Source: Rhodothermales bacterium
Lineage (GTDB): Bacteria; Bacteroidota; Rhodothermia; Rhodothermales; JANQRZ01
Assembly: GCA_039944855.1 (NCBI GenBank)
Contig: JBDUXZ010000020.1
Span: forward strand, 248,001 to 312,000
Direction of reading: 5' to 3'
DNA: 64,000 bases
Under the pieces are notes generated by a model. The model did not search any database and was not told the origin of the DNA. It saw only the letters and a list, made by a program, of their open reading frames with translations. The position numbers and the translations under genes are program-made. This document shows positions 51,129-62,083 of this stretch, one piece after another. Numbering within the stretch: the first letter of the stretch is position 1; every line of letters starts with the position of its first letter.

Positions 51129-53870
51129 TCAGCGGACGAGGAGCACTTTCGTCGCCTGCCGCTGCCCGTCCGCGTCGAGCACGACGAAGTAGACGCCCGT
51201 CGCGAGGCGCGAGCCGTCGAGCGTCGCCCGGTGCGGACCGGCGGCCACGTCACCGTCGACGAGCGTCGCTACCCGCCGTCCGAGCACGTCGAAGACGGAG
51301 AGCCGGACCGAGCCCGCGCGCTCGACCTCGAACGGCACCGTCGCCGTCGCGGCGAACGGGTTGGGGAACGCGGACCCGAGCCGGAACGCCTGCGGGGCCG
51401 CCGGCGCGTCGCCCTCGGCGTCGACGAAGAGCCGGTCGTTCGAGACGAAACGGATCGTGGTGCCGGGGGGCGGCGTGGTGCCGTCGCCGGCGAGGTCGGC
51501 GAGGACGATCCCTTCGAGCCCGCCAACCGGGGCGACGATGCGGTTGCTGTTGCCCCGGTAGCAGAAGTCGGCGTAGAAGTTCTGGCTGCGGCAGTCGCTC
51601 CCGTCAGCCGGGTTCGGGTCGATCTGCTCGTCGCCGTCGGTCGCGGGGTCGTAGGTCGCGCCCGGCCCGCCGAAGCCATTCGCGGCGGCTTCGAAGAGGG
51701 CGTAGCCGTTCGGGCGGTCCGGCATCAGTCCGAGCACGCGGTTCGTCACGGGGAGCATGAGGGTGTCCTCGCCTGCGATCACGTCTTGCTCGGCGGGGAA
51801 CGTGTCGGCCCATTCCGCGACAGGCTCGGTGCCGGTGAGGGCACGGAGGAGCGGGATCATGCGGACGTCGTCGGCCGCGTCGTCGCTCTCGCGCAGGCCG
51901 CGCCGGACGTTCCACAGCTCGAAGGGCACGCTCGTGATGAGGTTCGCGTCGGCGAGCGGGAACCAGTACGTGCCGAGGCAGGCCCCGGGCGTGGCGCACG
52001 CTTCGGTGAAGCGGATCTCGAAGTCGTCGTCGTCGACCACCTCCACGTCGCGAAGGAGGTCGGCGAGGTCGTTGTCGGGGGTCGTGAGGACGTAATCGGA
52101 GGTGCTGTTCGGATCGCGCCAGACGGTGTTGCCGGGGGCGCGCTCGTCGGCGCAGCCGGGGTCGTCGGGCGCGTCGGCGCAGACGTCCGTGACGGCGGGG
52201 TGCGCGGTCTCGACGATCCGCTGGCCTGCCTCGCCGAAGTACTCCGGGGCGAACTGGTAGATCGTGTACGAGCGGGCCTCGGAGGGGAAGCTCTGCTCCA
52301 GCCCGGCGACAGCCTGCACGCGCCAGTAGTACGTCACGACTTCGTTCGGGGTGGGCGTCGTGGCTCCGGCTTGACCGCTGCCGTTGCCGTACCACGTCGT
52401 CCGGTCGGAGAAGTCGGGCTCGGTGGCGAAGTCGACGCGGTAATACTCTGCGCCCGGCACCTCCGTCCACTGCAGGTTCGCGTTGCCGACGATGAACGCG
52501 CCGTCCTCGGGCGCGAGCAGTTCCGGCGTGGCGAGTGTGCCGGGCGGGGCGGGTTCGAGCGGGCTCGGCGCGAAGAGGTCGCCTGCGTCGTAGCGCGCCT
52601 GCACGGCGTCGGAGATCGCTTGCAGCTCCGCGACGGAGTCGAGGTTGTCCTCGCCCTGCGCGAAGAGGAGCGCGAAGTCGAACGTGCGGGATTCGCCCGG
52701 CGCGAGCGTGAAGGCAGGCGAGGCGATCGTGTGGCGGCGGTCGCCTGGCGGATTGCTGTTCCCCTCGCTATTGATGTTCAGCTCGCTCCAAAAAGCTTCG
52801 GTGACAGGGTCGCCGGGGTAAGCCCATGTGAGGACAGGGCCGCCGCCGCCGTAACCATCGCCTCCCTCCGTCAGCGGCACTCCGTCCCGCCAGCGCGCAT
52901 TCATTGAGAAGTAGATCTCTTCGCCGTTGTTCGGGTCCGAATTGGGAGTGCCGGGTGCGCTTATAAAGAACATCGACACCTCGCCTCCCGAAAGAAAGTC
53001 ATAGCCGAACGCAGGTGGAGAATCCCCGTAGCCGCCGCTGAGCCCTCCATTGTCGTCGTTATCAGCGTTGTAGACGAACGCCATGCTCCGCGTCGAGTCA
53101 CTCCCGACGTAGTCGTCGGCGGGGTCGCCGAGGTCGGAGTCCATGAAGAGCCCGAACCGCGCGGCTTCGAATGGCTGGCTGTTCCGGTTCACGACCTCGT
53201 AGCGGTAGAACGTGTGCTGGTCGAGCCCGGCCTCCAGCGACGTGAACGCCGTCACGCGGACTTCCAGCCCGATCGGCTCCGTCAGCGAGTTGCGGTGCTC
53301 GTTCCCCACGTCGTTCATCACCCAGAACGCCGTCTGATGTCCGTAGACCTCGGGCCGGTCGCCGCCCGCGAGGTTGTAGTTCCCCTCGACGCCGTCGCCG
53401 TCGATGACGGGCGCGCCGAGGTCGACGGGCCAGTTCAACAGATCGCCCGTCGCCTCGCCCGTCGCGTCGTACAGCGCGAGGTCGAAGGGGTCGACGAGCC
53501 AGAAGCGGTCGAAGGTGGAGCAGTCGTCGGGATTCGGGAGCGAGCCGTCCTCGTCGAGGGGGCCGGGCCAGAACTCGAAATCGTTGTACGTGGCCGCTGC
53601 CACGCGCACGTCGCCGCCGATGAGACCGCCGATCCAGATCCCGGCGGCGAAGACGGGCGATGTGCCTTCGTTTTTCGGGACGAGGTAGCCGTCACCGCTG
53701 ACGGTGGTATTCCCGAAGAAGAGGCTGCCGGTGTTGAAAAGGCGGGCCAGGACGTCCGAGATCGCGAGGTCGAGTTCGGCCGAGCCGGTCTCGCAGGTGC
53801 CGGGCGTTTGCGCGAGGCCGGGCGCGGCGCAGAGGCCGCAGAGGACGAGGACGAGCGTAGCGAGGCGCAT
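51129..53870 (-). CDS. Large secreted/surface protein with T9SS sorting domain
   Basis: A 913-residue exported protein: signal peptide (residues 1-20, ending PGLAQ), a long beta-rich body with GIWIGGLIGGDVRVAAATYNDFEFWPGP and HTFYRYEVVNRNSQPFEAARFGLFMDSDLGDPADDYVGSD, a fibronectin III-like segment (about 460-545, ELLAPEDGAFIVGNANLQWTEVPGAEYYRVDFA), and a C-terminal sorting domain (GSAFPNPFAATATVPFEVERA...). The D-x-D-N-D loops suggest calcium binding. No enzyme motif; function unknown. Confidence 0.8.
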   Translation of the reverse strand: MRLATLVLVLCGLCAAPGLAQTPGTCETGSAELDLAISDVLARLFNTGSLFFGNTTVSGDGYLVPKNEGTSPVFAAGIWIGGLIGGDVRVAAATYNDFEFWPGPLDEDGSLPNPDDCSTFDRFWLVDPFDLALYDATGEATGDLLNWPVDLGAPVIDGDGVEGNYNLAGGDRPEVYGHQTAFWVMNDVGNEHRNSLTEPIGLEVRVTAFTSLEAGLDQHTFYRYEVVNRNSQPFEAARFGLFMDSDLGDPADDYVGSDSTRSMAFVYNADNDDNGGLSGGYGDSPPAFGYDFLSGGEVSMFFISAPGTPNSDPNNGEEIYFSMNARWRDGVPLTEGGDGYGGGGPVLTWAYPGDPVTEAFWSELNINSEGNSNPPGDRRHTIASPAFTLAPGESRTFDFALLFAQGEDNLDSVAELQAISDAVQARYDAGDLFAPSPLEPAPPGTLATPELLAPEDGAFIVGNANLQWTEVPGAEYYRVDFATEPDFSDRTTWYGNGSGQAGATTPTPNEVVTYYWRVQAVAGLEQSFPSEARSYTIYQFAPEYFGEAGQRIVETAHPAVTDVCADAPDDPGCADERAPGNTVWRDPNSTSDYVLTTPDNDLADLLRDVEVVDDDDFEIRFTEACATPGACLGTYWFPLADANLITSVPFELWNVRRGLRESDDAADDVRMIPLLRALTGTEPVAEWADTFPAEQDVIAGEDTLMLPVTNRVLGLMPDRPNGYALFEAAANGFGGPGATYDPATDGDEQIDPNPADGSDCRSQNFYADFCYRGNSNRIVAPVGGLEGIVLADLAGDGTTPPPGTTIRFVSNDRLFVDAEGDAPAAPQAFRLGSAFPNPFAATATVPFEVERAGSVRLSVFDVLGRRVATLVDGDVAAGPHRATLDGSRLATGVYFVVLDADGQRQATKVLLVR

Positions 53871-53968: not shown

Positions 53969-54005
53969 CCCGTCGCCGCGCCGGAGCGTTCAGCGCGGCG
54001 ACGGG
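53969..54005 (-). terminator. Hairpin after the TonB receptor gene
   Basis: CCCGTCGCCGCGC (53969-53981) and GCGCGGCGACGGG (53993-54005) make a perfect 13-bp stem, 18 bp beyond the stop on the minus strand. No T-run follows. It ends the four-gene cassette. Confidence 0.65.
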
Positions 54006-54022: not shown

Positions 54023-56320
54023 TCAAAATCGCCAGGTGACGGAGAGTCGAGCGGTGCGGGGGATGACCGGGTGGAAGTGCACGTCCTCGACACCGTCGGC
54101 CGATTCGCCCGGCAGCCGCGATGCGTAGAAGTAGCTGACGTCGGCATCGGCGGCGTCGGTGAGGTTGAGCACGTCGAGGGCTACGGCGACGCGGCGGAAT
54201 CGGTAGGCGGCTTTCACGTTCAGCAGCGTCGTCGCCTCGGCTTCGATCCGTCCGTCGGCCGTGAGCGGGCGCGGGCCGAAGTGCCGAAGCTGCACGCTCC
54301 CGAGCCACCCCGTCGCCCGGCCGACGTAGACGCCGCCGCTGACGATGCGCCCGATCGAGTTCTCGATCTCCGTGCCTTCCCCGTCGTCTTCGGTGAAGCG
54401 GGACTCGGTGAGCGCCACGTCGAGCGTGAGGTCCAGCCAGTCCGTCACGTCGTAATGGTTGGTCCACTCGGCGCCGTAGTGCTCGCTCGCGCCGCTCGGC
54501 TCAGTGCCGCCGGCGTCGCCGACGAAGACGAGTTCGGACTCCAGTCCGATGGTCCAGAGCGCGAGCGTGGACTGGAGTCCCGAGATCGCCGCCGTCCGCA
54601 CGCCGACTTCGGCGCCCCGCGTCCGCACGAGCGGATCGACCCGGTCCACCGCGTCCCCCGTCGCCGGATCGACGCGGATCGTCGTGCCGCGCGCGTCGTT
54701 GCTGTGGTAGCCGAGGCCGAGGTTGACATAGACCTCGGTGTCGCGCCACGGACCGAGGGCGAGGCTGGCCTTTGGGCTGGCGATAAACGCCGTCTCCACC
54801 CCGGAGTTGACCTCGCGGTCGCTCGCCACGTCGAACCGGAACACGTCGCCGCGCACGCCGAGCGTCGTGCGCAGCCAGCCGCTCCACCGGGTCTCGTTTT
54901 CGAGGTACGCGCCCACGCTCGTCTCGGCGACTTCGTCGTCGCGCACCGTGCCGATGCGCGCGCGGCTGCGGGTGTTGAACAGCCCGACGCCGAAGATCTG
55001 GTCGTGCCGCAGCGCCGCGCCGACGGTGTTCGTGTTTTGCTGGCCGAACCACCGTGAGAACCACGCGTGCGAGACGTTCGCCCCGGCGTAGAGCCGGCGG
55101 TCGGCCTGCTCGAACTGGTCGCCGTCGGTGGGGTTGTCGAGGAAGTAGGTGAAGTTGGAGAACAGGTTGAGGTGGTAGTACGCGGCGTAGGCATTCGCCC
55201 GCGTCCGCCCGCTCCCCGGCGTCGTCTGCTGCCACGCGCCGACGAGCGTGTAGCGGCCCGTCGTCCCGCCGTTGCTCGGGTCGAGCGTGCCGAGGCGCGA
55301 GACTTGGCCGCGTTCGACGGCGCGGCGGGCGATCTGATCGGTGGCGTCCCACACGTGGTGGTAGCCCATCGCCGCGAGGGAATAGCCGTCGGACGCCGTG
55401 CCGGCGGAGTACTTCACGACGCCGCTGACGAGGCCGCTGTTCTCCGGGTTGATCCACGGCCCGTCGTAGTAGCGGCCCCGCACGGCGAAGAGCAGATCAC
55501 CGCCGCCGAGCGGAGACGAGTCGGCGATCAGGCCGCCGTAGTAATCGTCGATCCCGCTCTCGGCCTTCGCGATGCCCACGTCGAGCCGTCGCGCGAGCCG
55601 GATCTGCGCGCGTCCGGCCGTAGCGAAGTCGCCTGCCGCTACGTCCTGCGGCCCCTTCGCGAAGGCGACCTCCTCGATCAGCTCGGGAATCAGCCAGTTC
55701 AAGTCGAGGTAGCCCTGTCCGTGGGCGTGCGTCGGGAGGTTGATCGGCACGCCCTCGACGGAGGCGGCGAAGTCGGTGCCGTGGTCGAGGTTGAAGCCGC
55801 GGAGGAAGAACTGGTTGGCCTTGCCCGATCCGCTGTGCTGCGTCACGATCATCCCCGGCACGGTCTCCAGCACTTCGCCGACACGGAGCAGGGGCCGCGC
55901 CGCGAGTTGCGCCTGCCCGACGCGCCCTTCCGACGCCGCCCCGGCGGTGCCAACGAGGTTCGCCGCCCGGCCTTCGACGACGACCTCGCGGAGACTCGTG
56001 CTGCGCGGGGTCAGGGCCAGGCTCGCGCGCGTGGCTTCACCGGGCCGTACCGCGACGGACTGCGCAACGGTCTCGTACCCGATGAAGCTGGCCTGGAGCA
56101 CGTACGTGCCCGGAGCGACGCCGAGGAGTTCGAACCGCCCGTCCGGTCCGGTGACGGTGCCGCGCTCCGTCGGCAGCAGCGCGACGTTGACGCCTGGAAG
56201 CGGCGATCCATCGTCGGCGTCGCGGACGGTGCCTTCCACCGCGCCGGTGGGTTGGGCGTGAGTGAGAGGGGCGATGCCGACGAACAGCATCCAAAGGAAA
56301 AGTGGAGGTAGGGTCTTCAT
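54023..56320 (-). CDS. TonB-dependent receptor of the DUF4331 cassette
   Basis: A 765-residue outer-membrane receptor: signal peptide (residues 1-23), carboxypeptidase-like regulatory domain (about 26-105, VEGTVRDADDGSPLPGVNV), plug (about 120-245, with NQFFLRGFNLDHGTDFAASVEGVPINLPTHAHGQGYLDLNWL), barrel to the C-terminal aromatic (LSVTWRF). The plug region is rich in His/Asp (HGTDF, THAHGQG), compatible with a metal or metal-chelate ligand. It is the last gene of a leftward group whose previous gene encodes a His-rich protein. Confidence 0.92.
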   Translation of the reverse strand: MKTLPPLFLWMLFVGIAPLTHAQPTGAVEGTVRDADDGSPLPGVNVALLPTERGTVTGPDGRFELLGVAPGTYVLQASFIGYETVAQSVAVRPGEATRASLALTPRSTSLREVVVEGRAANLVGTAGAASEGRVGQAQLAARPLLRVGEVLETVPGMIVTQHSGSGKANQFFLRGFNLDHGTDFAASVEGVPINLPTHAHGQGYLDLNWLIPELIEEVAFAKGPQDVAAGDFATAGRAQIRLARRLDVGIAKAESGIDDYYGGLIADSSPLGGGDLLFAVRGRYYDGPWINPENSGLVSGVVKYSAGTASDGYSLAAMGYHHVWDATDQIARRAVERGQVSRLGTLDPSNGGTTGRYTLVGAWQQTTPGSGRTRANAYAAYYHLNLFSNFTYFLDNPTDGDQFEQADRRLYAGANVSHAWFSRWFGQQNTNTVGAALRHDQIFGVGLFNTRSRARIGTVRDDEVAETSVGAYLENETRWSGWLRTTLGVRGDVFRFDVASDREVNSGVETAFIASPKASLALGPWRDTEVYVNLGLGYHSNDARGTTIRVDPATGDAVDRVDPLVRTRGAEVGVRTAAISGLQSTLALWTIGLESELVFVGDAGGTEPSGASEHYGAEWTNHYDVTDWLDLTLDVALTESRFTEDDGEGTEIENSIGRIVSGGVYVGRATGWLGSVQLRHFGPRPLTADGRIEAEATTLLNVKAAYRFRRVAVALDVLNLTDAADADVSYFYASRLPGESADGVEDVHFHPVIPRTARLSVTWRF

Positions 56321-56559
56321 GGGGATTCTCTTCTCGCGTAGTCAGAGGGGGCAGGCCGCTCGCGGAGCGCGCCGCGTGGACGCACCGATTCCGCATCACG
56401 GACCGATCTGGGCGTGCGGTGCCGACATGCACCGCGCGACCACGGCCTCGGCGTGCCCGGACGGAGGGGTCCGAGGGCAGCCGAAACCGGGCTGAGGTCA
56501 GGCACGCCGCGTCCGCGGCCGAGACGGCGTCTCGTGATTCGGCGTGCGGCGGGGTGGTG

Positions 56560-57027
56560 TCAGCTCAGTGCGCGAGGAGGCAGCACTTCGACGGGAGGTG
56601 CCGTGGAGAAAAGGGCCGCCGTGGGACGGACGTCGTCCCGGTCCCGGACTGGAAGTGGGGGAAGTGCCGCGCCCGAGAACAGGCAGTGTTTGTCGAGCGA
56701 GACCGTCAGCACGGCCGGAGCGTCCGGGTCGGCGTCGCGGTCGCGCTCGTGGGTGTGTGTGCGGCCGTCGTGCTCGTGCGGTGCGTCACCGTGCGCATGG
56801 TTGCCGTGCGCGTGTCCGGAGCCGGGGTGTGCATGCGGAGACGCCGCGTACGCGGCAACCGACTCGGCCTCGTGGCGCTCGGTCACGAGGTGCACGAGCA
56901 GGCTCCACCCATGCCCGGCGGACGAGCCCGCGAGCACGAGCGCGTACCCGACGAGTACGAGCACGGCGAGTGCGCGCTGCACGGACAGGCGCGTGAGACG
57001 AAAGGAATACGTGCATCGTCGAGGCAT
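56560..57027 (-). CDS. His-rich putative metal-binding protein
   Basis: A 155-residue protein with an N-terminal hydrophobic segment (about 18-38, VQRALAVLVLVGYALVLAGSSAG, signal anchor or signal peptide), then a His-rich run (HAHPGSGHAHGNHAHGDAPHEHDGRTHTHERD, about 65-97) with more than ten His, and a tail with one Cys (LDKHCLFSG). This is the pattern of periplasmic Zn/Ni/Cu buffering proteins next to TonB receptors. The metal is not determined. The gap 56321-56559 to the receptor holds no gene and no riboswitch that I could recognise. Confidence 0.7.
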   Translation of the reverse strand: MPRRCTYSFRLTRLSVQRALAVLVLVGYALVLAGSSAGHGWSLLVHLVTERHEAESVAAYAASPHAHPGSGHAHGNHAHGDAPHEHDGRTHTHERDRDADPDAPAVLTVSLDKHCLFSGAALPPLPVRDRDDVRPTAALFSTAPPVEVLPPRALS

Positions 57028-57061
57028 CGTAGGAGGCGCAAAGACACGCTACGTCGGTTCG

Positions 57062-58426
57062 CTACTCTCCGATCGCGGCTTGCTGAACCGTCCCAGCCGC
57101 GCCGTCGAGCGATGCCAGCACGGTTTGCGCTTCCGCTGCTGCCGTCGGGCTCTCGACGCGGAGGTGGTTGGCGAGGGAGAGTTGGAGGTGGCGTGCGGCC
57201 TCTGCCCGGTCGCCGGCGGCTTCGTAGATCCGCGCCGCGCGGTAGTGCACCATCGCGTCGCCCGTGTCGAGCCGCATCGCCCGCTCGATGTACGGAATCG
57301 CCTCGCGCGAGCGCCCGTTGTGGTGGAGCGCCCACGCATACGTCTCGTTCGCGTGGAGGTGGCCGGGCCGCCGCGCCTGCTGCTGTCGCGCCATTTCGAG
57401 CGCCTGCTCGACCTCGATGCCGTTGTCGAGCATGAAGTCGGCCTCTTCCATATCCACGATCTCTCCGAAGGCGCGGACGGCGGCGAAGTCTTTGCGGACG
57501 CCGTCGAGCGCCTTGTTCGCGGCCCGCTCGTCGCCGGCGGCGGCGAGGGCCTCGGCGAGCCCTTCGAGGTACTCGGCGCGCGGGGCCATGCCGTGCGCGG
57601 TGCGGTACTGCTCGGCGGCCCGCTCGTAATCGCCCGTGGCGAGGGCGGCGTGGCCGAGCCCGGCGACGGCGTAGGCGTAGTCCGGCCGTTCCGCGAGAAT
57701 GCCCTTGAAGATGAACGCGGCGGTGTCGGGCTTGGCGTCGGCGAGGTAGAGCGTGCCGAGGGTGTAGAGCGCCCACGCGCGGTCGGCGTGTCCGCTCGCG
57801 CCGGCGTCGGCAGCGAGGCGCATCGCGGCGATCGCGCCGTCGGTGTCGCCGTGGAGCTCGCGGAGGTACGAAGCGCGGGAGTATGACGCGAGGCTAGGCT
57901 TGATGGCGAGCATCGCGTCAGACGCGGCGATCGCGGCGTCGTACTCCCCGAGTTCGACGAGGGCGTCGGCGAGGATGCCGTGGGCGTACGCATTCTGCGG
58001 ATGCTGCGCGATCAGCCGCTCGGCGAGGTCGCGTCCGTCCTCGAACCGGTGGAGCTTGTTGAAGAGCGTGCCCTGCAACAGGAGGGCGTGGTAGTTATTG
58101 GGTTCCTGCCGGAGCGCGGCGGCGAGGGCCTCGCGGGCGGCGGGGATGTACTCGGCCTCGCGGCCCGTCGCGTTCGCCTGCTGGAGCAGGGCCTGCGCGA
58201 GCGCGACCCGACTCTGGACGTCGCGGGGCTCGCGGCGGAGCTTCTCGCGGTAGTAGGCGATGGACGCCTCGGCGTTGATGAACTCGGACGAGGGGAGGAC
58301 CTCGCGCGGGCCTTCGGGGAGATCGGCAACGGGGGCCTGCTGGGCGTCCCAGAGCGAGTAGCCGGCGAAAGCCGCTGCCGCGACGAGCGCGACGAGGAGG
58401 AGGGAGCGGAGAGGGGATTTCATCAC
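57062..58426 (-). CDS. TPR-repeat protein of the DUF4331 cassette
   Basis: A 454-residue protein with a single N-terminal membrane anchor (residues 8-25, LLLVALVAAAAFAGYSL) and about ten tetratricopeptide repeats (VQSRVALAQALLQQAN, NYHALLLQGTLFNKLHRFEDG, AYAHGILADALVELGEYDAAIA, AYAVAGLGHAALATGDYERAAEQYR, MVHYRAARIYEAAGDRAEAARHLQ). TPRs bind protein partners, so it may scaffold the cassette in the periplasm. ATG 58423 is an equal start. It is 34 bp upstream of the His-rich gene. Confidence 0.88.
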   Translation of the reverse strand: MMKSPLRSLLLVALVAAAAFAGYSLWDAQQAPVADLPEGPREVLPSSEFINAEASIAYYREKLRREPRDVQSRVALAQALLQQANATGREAEYIPAAREALAAALRQEPNNYHALLLQGTLFNKLHRFEDGRDLAERLIAQHPQNAYAHGILADALVELGEYDAAIAASDAMLAIKPSLASYSRASYLRELHGDTDGAIAAMRLAADAGASGHADRAWALYTLGTLYLADAKPDTAAFIFKGILAERPDYAYAVAGLGHAALATGDYERAAEQYRTAHGMAPRAEYLEGLAEALAAAGDERAANKALDGVRKDFAAVRAFGEIVDMEEADFMLDNGIEVEQALEMARQQQARRPGHLHANETYAWALHHNGRSREAIPYIERAMRLDTGDAMVHYRAARIYEAAGDRAEAARHLQLSLANHLRVESPTAAAEAQTVLASLDGAAGTVQQAAIGE

Positions 58427-58474
58427 AGAAGGGGTGCGTGCAGAAGAGTGGGTGCGTCAGGTCACAACAACGAG

Positions 58475-58520
58475 CGAGCCGCCGCCCCTTCGATCCGGGG
58501 GAATCAGGGGCGGCGGCTCG
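58475..58520 (-). terminator. Hairpin between DUF4331 and TPR genes
   Basis: CGAGCCGCCGCCCCT (58475-58489) and AGGGGCGGCGGCTCG (58506-58520) form a perfect 15-bp stem with a 16-nt loop. On the minus strand the sequence after it is CTCGTTGTTGTG, only weakly T-rich, so it may give partial termination that makes DUF4331 the most abundant product. Confidence 0.6.
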
Positions 58521-58561
58521 TCGGTCCCCGTAGCCACAGCGTGCGCTACAGGAGAGGGAGG

Positions 58562-60775
58562 CTACCGGATGACGGTGGCCTTTTTCGTCGAGACGGGGCG
58601 GCCGTCCACGGCGAGGCGGTAGAAGTACGTCCCGCTCGCGAAGCGGCTCGCGTCCCACTCCACCTCGTAGGTGCCCTGCGGACGCGCGTCATCGACGAGC
58701 GTGTCCACGAGCCGGCCGCGGATGTCGTAGACGGCGAGCTGCACCGTGCCGGGCGAGGAGACGTGGTACTCCACGGTCGTCCGCGCGCCGAACGGGTTCG
58801 GGTAGTTCTGGTCGAGGATGAACCCCTGCGGCACGCCGACGCCGATGCCAGGCTCGGCGTTGACCGGGAACGGCGGCGCGTCGGCCGTCACGTCGCGGAC
58901 GTAGTCGAAGCCGCGCTGCGGATTCGCGAGGTACGGGAAGTCGTCGCGGAGCGCGATGTCGTTCTTCGTCGGCCCGGCCACGAACGTCAGCTCGCTCACG
59001 AGCTGCGGCGAGGCGAGGTCGGAGTAGTCCCCGGCCGTCGCGTCGTCTTCCGGCAGCCCGACGGCGGCGAGCACGAGCCCGGCCACGGCCTGCAGTTCGA
59101 TCGTCGTCACGTCATCCTCGAGGCGGCGGCCGTTCGGGAAGCCGTCCATGTGCGGGATGAACTCGAGCATCTCGCTCTCGTTGAACGGCGCGGCGGTGAG
59201 GCCGAGCGCGGCGGCGCGGATGAGGCCCTGGAAGGCGTACGTGCCGAACTCCTCCGTGCCGCGGTCGGTCGTCGGCGTGGCCATGTTGAGGCGGAGCATG
59301 TCGCCGCCCCAGAGCCCGCCGTCGGGCGTCTGCGTGATCGGGAGGAAGTTGTGGATGAATGGCTTGCCCGTCGAGAGCGGCCCGCCGTCTTTGCCCGTCG
59401 CGAGCTGGTACGGGACGGCGTTCGGGACGCCGAAGTAGAAGATGGGGAAGATGTCCACGAGGCGCGGCTTGCCGGGGGCGGCGAGCGCCGTCGGGCTGCC
59501 GTCGAACGTCGGCCGCGTCGGCACGGCGAAGGCCGTCCCGCTGAGGTCCACGCCCGCTGCGGCGACTTCCCACACGCCGTCGGCGCCGTTCGTGAAGTCG
59601 AGCCCGTTGTCGCCGTCGCCGTCGAGGTCACCGACCGCGGGGTACGAGTTCGTCTGGATCTCGAGGGCGTTGCTGAGGCCGGGCACGGCCGGGCCGAACT
59701 GCCCGTTGCCCATGTAGAGCCCGAGCTCGGGGTTCGCGAAGTACGTCACGAAATCCTGCTCGTCGGCGTCGTACGGGGAGATCGAGTTCCATCGGTCCTT
59801 CTCGCCGATCGGGACGATGACCTCGTTCGTCAGCGGCATCCCGAGGCGGGAGACCTGCACCCACGGCCCGGAGTACGTCGGCGCCGAGCCGTCAGACTGG
59901 AGCGTCCGAATCTGCGGGCGGCTGGCCGAGGCCCACACGCCGATCACGAAGTTCGGGTCGAGGATGTTCTCGGCCTGATCCACGCCGAGCCCGTCTTTCT
60001 GGAGGCTGGAGATCGGGAGGCGCAGGACGATGGCGTGCGTGTTGAAGCCGGCCACCTCGTCGCGGGCGTTGTTCGGGTTCGACGGGTCGTCGCCGAAGTC
60101 GCTGCGGAAGTTGCCCACGTCGAAGACGCCGCCGAGGTCGACGAAGAACGGGTCGTCGCGCGGACCGACGAAGACGCTGCCGCCATCGGCGGCGGTGACA
60201 GCCTGCTGCGTGAGGGCCTCGTACGACGTCCCGAGCCCGACCGTCCCGTCCTCGATCGACCGGGGGCCGATGTTGACCGGGGGCACGTAGCCGTCGGTGA
60301 CGACGGTCTGGAAGGAGATCCCGCCGTCCGTGCTCTTTTCCATCGTGTACGTCGCCTTCAGGTTCTCCGCGCCGAGGCGGATCTTGAAGAACGTGGACGG
60401 GTCCTCGTTCTCGAGCTCGAACGTGAAGCGGTACGTGATGTCGTCAGTGGCGCTGCCGAGCGGACCGGCGGACGTCTGGTTCTTGACGTGGATCTCGTAG
60501 CGGACGTTCTCGCCGAAGTTGTGGTAGTTCGGCCCGCCGGACGGCAGTTCGAGCGGGATGTAGTTGGCGACGATGACGACGCTGTTGGCGTCGTTGGGGT
60601 CGCGGAAGGCGTAAACGTCGGTGTTGTCCGCGAGCGGGTCGCTGGAGATCAGCGGGGCTTCGCGGTGGCTGGAGGCGTCGGTGAAGCTCGGCGCGGCGAG
60701 GCCGACGGCGAGGAGCCCGACGATGGCGGCCACGAGGGCGAGCGCAGACCGTCGAGCGGAGGTAGCGGTAGACAT
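58562..60775 (-). CDS. DUF4331 surface protein with T9SS sorting domain
   Basis: A 737-residue exported protein: signal peptide (about residues 1-35), DUF4331 domain (SSHREAPLISSDPLADNTDVYAFRDPND... through about residue 560, with YHNFGENVRYEIHV and GFNTHAIVLRLPIS), then a type IX sorting domain (NYPNPFGARTTVEYHVSSPG...). DUF4331 proteins are common beside TPR proteins, and their role is unknown. The first gene of the leftward cassette. Confidence 0.9.
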   Translation of the reverse strand: MSTATSARRSALALVAAIVGLLAVGLAAPSFTDASSHREAPLISSDPLADNTDVYAFRDPNDANSVVIVANYIPLELPSGGPNYHNFGENVRYEIHVKNQTSAGPLGSATDDITYRFTFELENEDPSTFFKIRLGAENLKATYTMEKSTDGGISFQTVVTDGYVPPVNIGPRSIEDGTVGLGTSYEALTQQAVTAADGGSVFVGPRDDPFFVDLGGVFDVGNFRSDFGDDPSNPNNARDEVAGFNTHAIVLRLPISSLQKDGLGVDQAENILDPNFVIGVWASASRPQIRTLQSDGSAPTYSGPWVQVSRLGMPLTNEVIVPIGEKDRWNSISPYDADEQDFVTYFANPELGLYMGNGQFGPAVPGLSNALEIQTNSYPAVGDLDGDGDNGLDFTNGADGVWEVAAAGVDLSGTAFAVPTRPTFDGSPTALAAPGKPRLVDIFPIFYFGVPNAVPYQLATGKDGGPLSTGKPFIHNFLPITQTPDGGLWGGDMLRLNMATPTTDRGTEEFGTYAFQGLIRAAALGLTAAPFNESEMLEFIPHMDGFPNGRRLEDDVTTIELQAVAGLVLAAVGLPEDDATAGDYSDLASPQLVSELTFVAGPTKNDIALRDDFPYLANPQRGFDYVRDVTADAPPFPVNAEPGIGVGVPQGFILDQNYPNPFGARTTVEYHVSSPGTVQLAVYDIRGRLVDTLVDDARPQGTYEVEWDASRFASGTYFYRLAVDGRPVSTKKATVIR

Positions 60776-61117: not shown

Positions 61118-61143
61118 TACCGCATCGTGACGGACTTCCGCTT
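61118..61143 (-). repeat. Stranded copy of the sdhB 3' end (partner at 62084-62109)
   Basis: This 26-bp segment matches 62084-62109, inside sdhB, at 25 of 26 positions. On the minus strand it reads KRKSVTMRY followed by its own stop TGA (61114-61116), the same last nine residues as SdhB, whose stop is TAG. Codons differ at Leu, Arg, Tyr and the stop but the peptide is identical, so the copy was once coding. It is the old end of sdhB, displaced by the islet between the repeats. Confidence 0.9.
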
Positions 61144-61697
61144 CAACCGTCCGCTTCCGGTGGGTAGAGGCGGGTGCGATCAGAATGCCGGCCGCTCGCA
61201 TGGTACGGGTGCTCCCAGAATATCTTTACTTCGTCGAGCACTCCCAGATTCTCCAGCAAGCTTGCGATTTCGTTGCGAGCGAAGTCAAGGTCTCGTAGTC
61301 GACACGTCAGCGATGGAGAGCTGAGATTTCCGAAGCTGATGCTTCCCATCTGTCCGGCTTCCTGCGTTTGGATGAGTTCCTCGATTGCAGCAGAGATCCC
61401 TAAATACTCCTGTCGAGCGCGCGAACGGGCTGCGTGAAACTCGATCCACACCTCGTACAGTCCCGACACGACGATGATGTAGACGCCCGTCTCTAAAAGG
61501 ATCTCTGTGGCACGCTCGGCGGCAAACTCTGCGAAAGCTTCCTCTCGCTCGTCGTCACCAGGCAGGATGACGCTCACGACGGTCAGGTTGTCCGTTTCAG
61601 GGCTTGGCCCGATCCCCACCAATTCCACGTCCGGGTACCGTTCGCACACCTCGTTGAACAGCTCCTCCGCAGCTTGGTATCGCTCGTCAACGATCAT
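61143..61697 (-). CDS. Unrecognised partner of the HEPN protein
   Basis: A 184-residue protein: MIVDERYQAAEELFNEVCERYPDVELVGIGPSPETDNLTVVSVILPGDDEREEAFAEFAAERATEILLETGVYIIVVSGLYEVWIEFHAARSRARQEYLGISAAIEELIQ then a C-terminal part containing LTCRLRDLDFARNEIASLLENLG. HEPN toxins usually pair with MNT nucleotidyltransferases, but the GSx(10)DxD signature is absent. No family recognised; an NT-like or PIN-like scaffold without catalytic residues is possible. It starts 11 bp inside the HEPN gene and its base composition is lower than sdh. Confidence 0.75.
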   Translation of the reverse strand: MIVDERYQAAEELFNEVCERYPDVELVGIGPSPETDNLTVVSVILPGDDEREEAFAEFAAERATEILLETGVYIIVVSGLYEVWIEFHAARSRARQEYLGISAAIEELIQTQEAGQMGSISFGNLSSPSLTCRLRDLDFARNEIASLLENLGVLDEVKIFWEHPYHASGRHSDRTRLYPPEADG

Positions 61698-62083
61698 TTC
61701 TCAACTCCTCGTGGATAGCGGTTACAAACGCTTCAGCTTTCCGTACACCTCGGGCTGCTTGCTTGGCAGTGACGCTCTCTGCTCTGTAGTCCGCCTTGTG
61801 TCTCAACGTCATCAAATCGAGCAGCGCGCCTTGCTTGCCGGGATATACTTTGCGTCGGTTAACAAGTTCTTCGGCGAAAGCAGCCTGAACTCGGTCGTGC
61901 TTGTCCTCACCGCGACCGATGCCCAATAACGCCGCACGCGCCGCCAAGTATGCAGCGTAGTAAGCGCGACTGACCGCGGCATCGTACAGCTCCTGTTTTA
62001 ATAGAAGCTGTGCTGCCCGGAAGTTTTGGAGCGCTTTTGCGAGAAGCAGAGGTTGGTCGGAAGACACGAGCGGGATCGTCTAA
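61144..62083 (-). mobile_element. Islet inserted at the 3' end of sdhB
   Basis: The repeat unit (61118-61143 and 62084-62109) repeats at a distance of 966 bp, so 966 bp were gained. The gained DNA holds only the HEPN gene and its partner, both in sdh orientation, and its composition is lower in G+C. The right repeat restores the sdhB ending. No integrase, inverted repeats or transposase are present. Gain by gene-end-targeted site-specific integration, or by homologous exchange, both fit. Confidence 0.75.
61687..62067 (-). CDS. HEPN-domain protein
   Basis: A 126-residue all-helical HEPN protein starting with GTG at 62065-62067. The diagnostic helix AAVSRAYYAAYLAARAALLG is intact, as is the C-terminal LMTLRHKADYRAE segment, which carries the Rx-H-type residues (Arg, His) used by HEPN ribonuclease toxins in related proteins. 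It overlaps its downstream partner by 11 bp and starts 13 bp after the sdhB stop, so it may be co-transcribed with sdh. It is either a toxin or a nucleic-acid-binding partner. Confidence 0.85.
   Translation of the reverse strand: MSSDQPLLLAKALQNFRAAQLLLKQELYDAAVSRAYYAAYLAARAALLGIGRGEDKHDRVQAAFAEELVNRRKVYPGKQGALLDLMTLRHKADYRAESVTAKQAARGVRKAEAFVTAIHEELRNDR

Follow-up and report, generated by a model that had tools for sequence, protein, structure and literature searches.

In Helicobacter pylori, FrpB4/TonB2 provides a TonB-dependent outer-membrane nickel route that feeds urease (PMC13367063), and the locus described here is likened to it by description only; the excerpt of that source on which the comparison draws mentions no DUF4331 or TPR partner. 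A second described system, PqqU (YncD), is a TonB-dependent receptor for PQQ whose plug residues Q84, Y99 and Q121 contact the ligand, with Y99 stacking on PQQ (PMC12124388). Nickel ligands formed by an N-terminal amine together with His3 or His2 are described for RcnR, NmtR and HypA, and the His-rich stretch of HypB-type proteins is a proposed nickel store (PMC7055735). At a free N-terminus, the sequence X-X-His constitutes the ATCUN motif, which binds Cu(II) and Ni(II) (PMC12509749). The DUF4331 family (PF14224) is named in no paper found among 5.4 million open-access texts.

The window, a 64,000-nucleotide stretch of a Rhodothermales genome (contig JBDUXZ010000020.1, positions 248,001 to 312,000), contains a DUF4331 gene (58562..60775, 737 aa), a TPR gene (57062..58426, 454 aa), a small His-rich gene (56560..57027, 155 aa with 14 His) and a TonB-dependent receptor gene (54023..56320, 765 aa). 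A preliminary description had read these as a cassette that would form a complete uptake path for a metal or metal complex. All four genes are real, all lie on the minus strand, and the coordinates given for them hold.

Cassette layout and conservation of gene order

The 34-bp gap described between the TPR and His-rich genes is correct; the other two gaps measure 135 and 239 bp. The single end hairpin described earlier is present on the minus strand 3' of the receptor gene (53969..54005, perfect 13-bp arms) and probably marks the transcript end. It carries no T run, and a consensus terminator scan gave no terminator call there. A second perfect hairpin (58475..58520, minus strand, 15-bp arms) sits between the DUF4331 and TPR genes, so that a single transcript for all four genes is predicted as likely. 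Neither riboswitches nor other Rfam elements turned up in an Rfam search of 20 kb of the window and of six loci.

Directly downstream of the cassette and on the same strand is a separate 913-aa T9SS-sorted protein (51129-53870), whose non-tail part does not recur among the loci examined. To the right of the DUF4331 gene lie a 184-aa ORF without a family (61143-61697), a HEPN-domain gene that overlaps it (61687-62067) and an ORF reading as sdhB, with the overlapping genes placed between sdhB and DUF4331. The HEPN gene and the 184-aa ORF are possibly a toxin-antitoxin-like pair.

Of 296 genomes sampled from the phylum, 38 have DUF4331 and 45 the receptor subfamily. The two occur together in 25 genomes against 5.8 expected (p = 5e-15), and at genus level the corresponding values are 19 and 5.4 (p = 5e-11). 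Gene order was examined at 80 named loci, of which 76 were eligible for the DUF4331-TPR comparison and 61 offered at least 6 kb of downstream sequence. Of the 76, 75 have a TPR gene next after DUF4331 in the same orientation, at a median gap of 116 bp. Downstream, the 61 loci hold the receptor subfamily in 44 cases and HupE/UreJ in 31, with at least one of the two in 51. This arrangement is far beyond chance, and the absence of co-occurrence, named in the preliminary description as grounds for abandoning its proposal, is rejected. One family of the window's class has DUF4331-TPR with neither receptor nor HupE, next to an MMPL gene; in one genus (L061-L065, L067) a split DUF4331-TPR is found near an MMPL-family transporter, and no receptor of this subfamily is close by. 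At L038 and L048 a secreted DUF6702-like protein, matched by Pfam in the L038 copy, stands between the TPR gene and HupE, and at L032, L038 and L043 a NACHT/AAA-like gene of 700 aa (cluster c23) is found near DUF4331 on its upstream side.

The conserved order does not extend strictly to the fourth gene. The window His-rich protein is small and exported-looking, carries an SLDKHxL motif and a PP near its C-terminus, and matches no Pfam or NCBIfam family; a clear relative adjoins DUF4331 in Rhodothermales loci only. At 25 of 86 loci (antisense control, 0 of 86) the gene before the receptor encodes a small, exported-looking protein that contains His and ends in a PP motif; these proteins are unlike the window protein in appearance, and NCBIfam found nothing of note among the small proteins of relatives. 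Pfam and NCBIfam confirm the TPR repeats of the window TPR protein, which begins with a hydrophobic anchor or signal and has no lipobox. Several of its relatives resemble lipoproteins and the window copy does not share the lipobox, so that its assignment as a periplasmic scaffold is a guess.

The core of the cassette is found outside the phylum as well. On annotated plasmids of Marinobacter and Lichenicola, a TPR-like gene and then HupE/UreJ come after DUF4331, and in one member of the Comamonadaceae the order is DUF4331, a hypothetical gene, HupE/UreJ. A Streptomycetaceae locus combines DUF4331 with a sortase, a TPR protein and a NicO-type 'nickel transporter', and a Nostoc locus combines it with a TPR protein and a NicO-type protein annotated as TauE/SafE. 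With permease families at these wider loci assigned by Pfam, the DUF4331-TPR-permease trio is present in Pseudomonadota with HupE/UreJ and in Actinomycetota and Cyanobacteriota with NicO. That two permease families fill one slot makes a nickel/cobalt-type substrate likely. An outer membrane of this kind is lacking in Actinomycetota, so that the receptor appears to have been added to suit the Gram-negative envelope.

The receptor, its plug histidines and urease

Homology of plug and barrel identifies the window protein as a TonB-dependent receptor: it has CarboxypepD_reg and Plug domains, the Plug match scores 51.5 bits (cut-off 23.9), and the profile aligns along PqqU over positions 122-712. 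It is the sole member of its subfamily in its own genome, where the next match scores 70 against 1,724 bits and covers the N-terminal part only. The plug cluster of His and Asp noted in the preliminary description is real and conserved across relatives. Within the plug motif (residues 162-213; 55682..55837, minus strand), His162, His180, His198 and His200 are invariant in 65 receptors from DUF4331 loci, and elsewhere in the protein His539 is invariant as well. The same histidines are kept in 20 receptors from loci without DUF4331, save two changes at position 198.

Comparison with PqqU, the closest solved structure by receptor profile (E 5e-19, nearly full length), places these residues. PqqU Q84, Y99 and Q121 align with receptor Lys167, His180 and Tyr204, and His198-Ala-His200 is inserted just ahead of Tyr204. 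By this alignment the invariant histidines lie at the relative's ligand site while the PQQ contacts are lost, and from the aligned sequences we infer that the plug histidines may form one metal site in space. Uptake of PQQ itself was considered and rejected, as the three contact residues are replaced by K, H and Y. Two extra histidines beside the ligand residues further set the receptor apart from PqqU, and the relative L146 scores 51 bits against the PqqU equivalog NF041535, far under its cut-off of 1200; for the window protein no match to this equivalog was reported.

Twenty receptor neighborhoods from genomes lacking DUF4331 indicate which metal may be carried. In three such genomes (G186, G206, G210) the receptor closes an operon holding ureC, ureE, ureF, ureG, ureD and a urea transporter, where the urease operons were assigned by Pfam in one genome and by the same gene clusters in the remaining two; in G203 and G222 the receptor adjoins HupE/UreJ. 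Urease genomes carry the receptor in 8 of 10 cases, where 1.5 would be expected (p = 6e-6, or 0.004 at genus level), with weak PF00449 matches of about 25 bits in other genomes counted as other amidohydrolases rather than urease. In the receptor tree the urease-linked receptors fall into two separate lineages, both embedded among the DUF4331-linked ones, and they share the plug histidines of the window receptor, which itself clusters with the HupE-linked L169 and two further DUF4331-linked receptors from Rhodothermales. One urease operon (L175) also encodes, directly before the receptor, a 162-aa exported-looking protein with 27 His and the SLDKHxL motif. That motif is common to this protein, the window His-rich protein and Rubrivirga L073, with TLDKHRL in L046, and its occurrence in a urease operon connects the His-rich gene with the same function.

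From these data we assign nickel as the metal of the cassette with moderate confidence. The direction of the earlier proposal, uptake of some metal or metal complex, is thereby supported by co-occurrence and urease linkage and is narrowed to nickel, perhaps cobalt. The path is not complete here: the HupE/UreJ and NicO nickel/cobalt permeases that fill the slot after TPR in many relatives are absent from the window's genome (98% complete), in which no HupE_UreJ_2, NicO or CbiM permease was detectable. The linkage of receptor to nickel enzyme is likewise present in three other genomes and absent from this one, which encodes no urease, NiFe hydrogenase or LarA; a search for Ni-SOD matched no control, and the nickel-enzyme negative covers the three enzymes named.

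The missing nickel enzymes lend weight to the same uptake system serving another substrate, such as copper, cobalt, zinc or a metallophore. ATCUN sites, predicted below for DUF4331, bind Cu(II) too (PMC12509749). Three receptors (L177, L178, L185) have a changed His748, two of them a changed His198 as well, and one with a changed plug His adjoins DUF3347; these receptors are perhaps for another metal. The HupE and NicO families, moreover, include cobalt carriers. The urease operons, reached in two receptor lineages that keep the plug histidines of the window receptor, favor nickel, and we regard a different metal as the metal of the cassette as unlikely.

A system for metal or envelope stress under ECF sigma/anti-sigma control would assign the parts differently, with DUF4331 and TPR maintaining the envelope or sequestering excess metal and the permease exporting it. 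Near DUF4331 in 37 loci of the phylum, ECF sigma genes appear at 14 and RskA-type anti-sigma genes at 12, and the same neighbors are found in Pseudoalteromonas. Some NicO proteins, RcnA for example, are exporters. A TonB-dependent receptor is an importer, however, linkage to urease means supply rather than detoxification, and no sigma gene adjoins the window cassette, which together make a stress function improbable.

The DUF4331 protein and its predicted tip

The window DUF4331 protein consists of a signal peptide, a DUF4331 domain (residues 35-619) and a T9SS sorting tail. It matches PF14224 along the entire profile (1-421 of 421; E 1e-118, 397 bits, cut-off 27). The C-terminal type A sorting domain (residues 658-732; 58580..58804, minus strand) exceeds the cut-offs of both PF18962 (31.4 against 27) and TIGR04183 (36 against 23), which predicts a T9SS-sorted protein. 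Bacteroidota DUF4331 genes often occur as a tandem pair (many loci, among them L036, L100, L103 and L110-L147), and in aligned pairs the T9SS tail is missing from the first copy. At L049-L067, comprising one large family and one family of the window's class, DUF4331 is divided into adjacent genes for an N-terminal half (~220 aa) and a C-terminal half (~185 aa), and this fission of the gene is suggestive of two modules that can exist apart.

A consistent feature of the family lies directly after the predicted signal-peptide cleavage site. An X-X-His sequence stands there in 115 of 115 counted DUF4331 proteins (99 full and 16 split), a count that leaves aside a few loci whose sequence is gapped, is truncated at an end or carries a variant motif (L055, ADHIDTP). 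In the window protein this is Ser35-Ser36-His37 (codons 60665..60673, minus strand), preceded by Ala. All 99 distinct full-length forms have the predicted mature start SSHREAP (SSHRDAP in one), with Ala (92), Ser (4) or Gly (3) immediately ahead and a small or aliphatic residue at -3. All 16 split forms start with ADH-x-DAP after an Ala. The cleavage site was placed by the -3/-1 rule alone, and the split forms mostly have Leu or Val, not Ala, at -3. The predicted mature start is again SSH in proteobacterial and actinobacterial DUF4331 proteins and SDH in Nostoc, and His37 is the sole histidine conserved in 14 of 14 sequences of a four-phylum alignment. As a control, X-X-His follows any allowed site in 4 of 133 other exported-looking ORFs of the same loci. 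Both structure models assign very low confidence to the first 11 to 15 residues, as would be compatible with a free tail.

These observations suggest that DUF4331 itself is probably metal-binding, a role that is new and was not part of the preliminary description. The predicted site resembles those of RcnR, NmtR and HypA in pairing an N-terminal amine with a histidine, at position 2 or 3 in those proteins and in X-X-His here. Those proteins are cytoplasmic and need no signal-peptide cleavage, whereas the DUF4331 site would arise by cleavage outside the cytoplasm. The residues next after SSH, R-E-A-P, are conserved to the same degree as the histidine, more than an ATCUN site requires, so that the tip may also dock somewhere.

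DUF4331 could instead be an enzyme or a structural protein of the surface with no connection to metal, its neighbors being hitch-hikers. Identity across aligned loci is 52-72%, which is unusually high for a secreted protein, and many invariant residues are not ligands. No fold match indicates a function: Foldseek found no significant match for the DUF4331 model (pLDDT 76) or its N-terminal half (pLDDT 75), and a PDB sequence search returned none. The best VIA matches (Z = 5.3 and 6.9, respectively) were nearly all antibody Ig domains, suggesting an Ig-like arrangement only, with no relative identified. Gene order and co-occurrence link DUF4331 to metal permeases across four phyla, and in two of these the permease belongs to a different family, which argues against hitch-hiking; we consider a function unrelated to metal highly improbable.

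A proposed route for nickel

On balance, we favor reading the cassette as an envelope system that captures nickel, possibly cobalt, and carries it across the outer membrane. What the sequences show directly is the order of the genes, their co-occurrence, the motifs and the linkage of the receptor to urease. In the mechanism that we infer, for metal binding, direction of flow and each division of labor alike, DUF4331 would be exported by Sec and, in the window's organism, delivered to the surface by T9SS. Cleavage of the signal peptide would expose Ser-Ser-His, in which the free amine, two amides of the backbone and His3 may bind Ni(II) or Cu(II). DUF4331 would collect the metal and hand it to the TonB-dependent receptor, whose plug apex would present the invariant histidine cluster at the place where the ligand sits in the distantly related PqqU. 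The small His-rich protein would buffer metal in the periplasm; it resembles HypB-type nickel buffers in its His-rich content and differs from them in its export-like N-terminus and in matching no known family. The TPR protein may hold DUF4331 or the receptor together. HupE/UreJ or NicO would complete inner-membrane uptake in many relatives, and another importer would do so in the window's genome.

A wider proposal is tentative, and we hold it with less conviction than the reading of the cassette itself. DUF4331 may found a family of 'nickel-catching' proteins that are exported and would gain their metal site, Ser-Ser-His or Ala-Asp-His, through signal-peptide cleavage. They would work alongside a TPR protein and with permeases that can replace one another across Bacteroidota, Pseudomonadota, Actinomycetota and Cyanobacteriota, and in Bacteroidota also with a His-cluster TonB receptor. 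On this proposal DUF4331 would act for nickel as a metallophore made of protein.

To our knowledge, outer-membrane nickel acquisition in Bacteroidota and many other bacteria has been little studied outside Helicobacter. We conclude with moderate confidence that the cassette is a TonB-linked nickel uptake system with an unstudied and widely shared extracellular core. DUF4331, an unstudied and widespread family, would thereby gain a specific, testable function.
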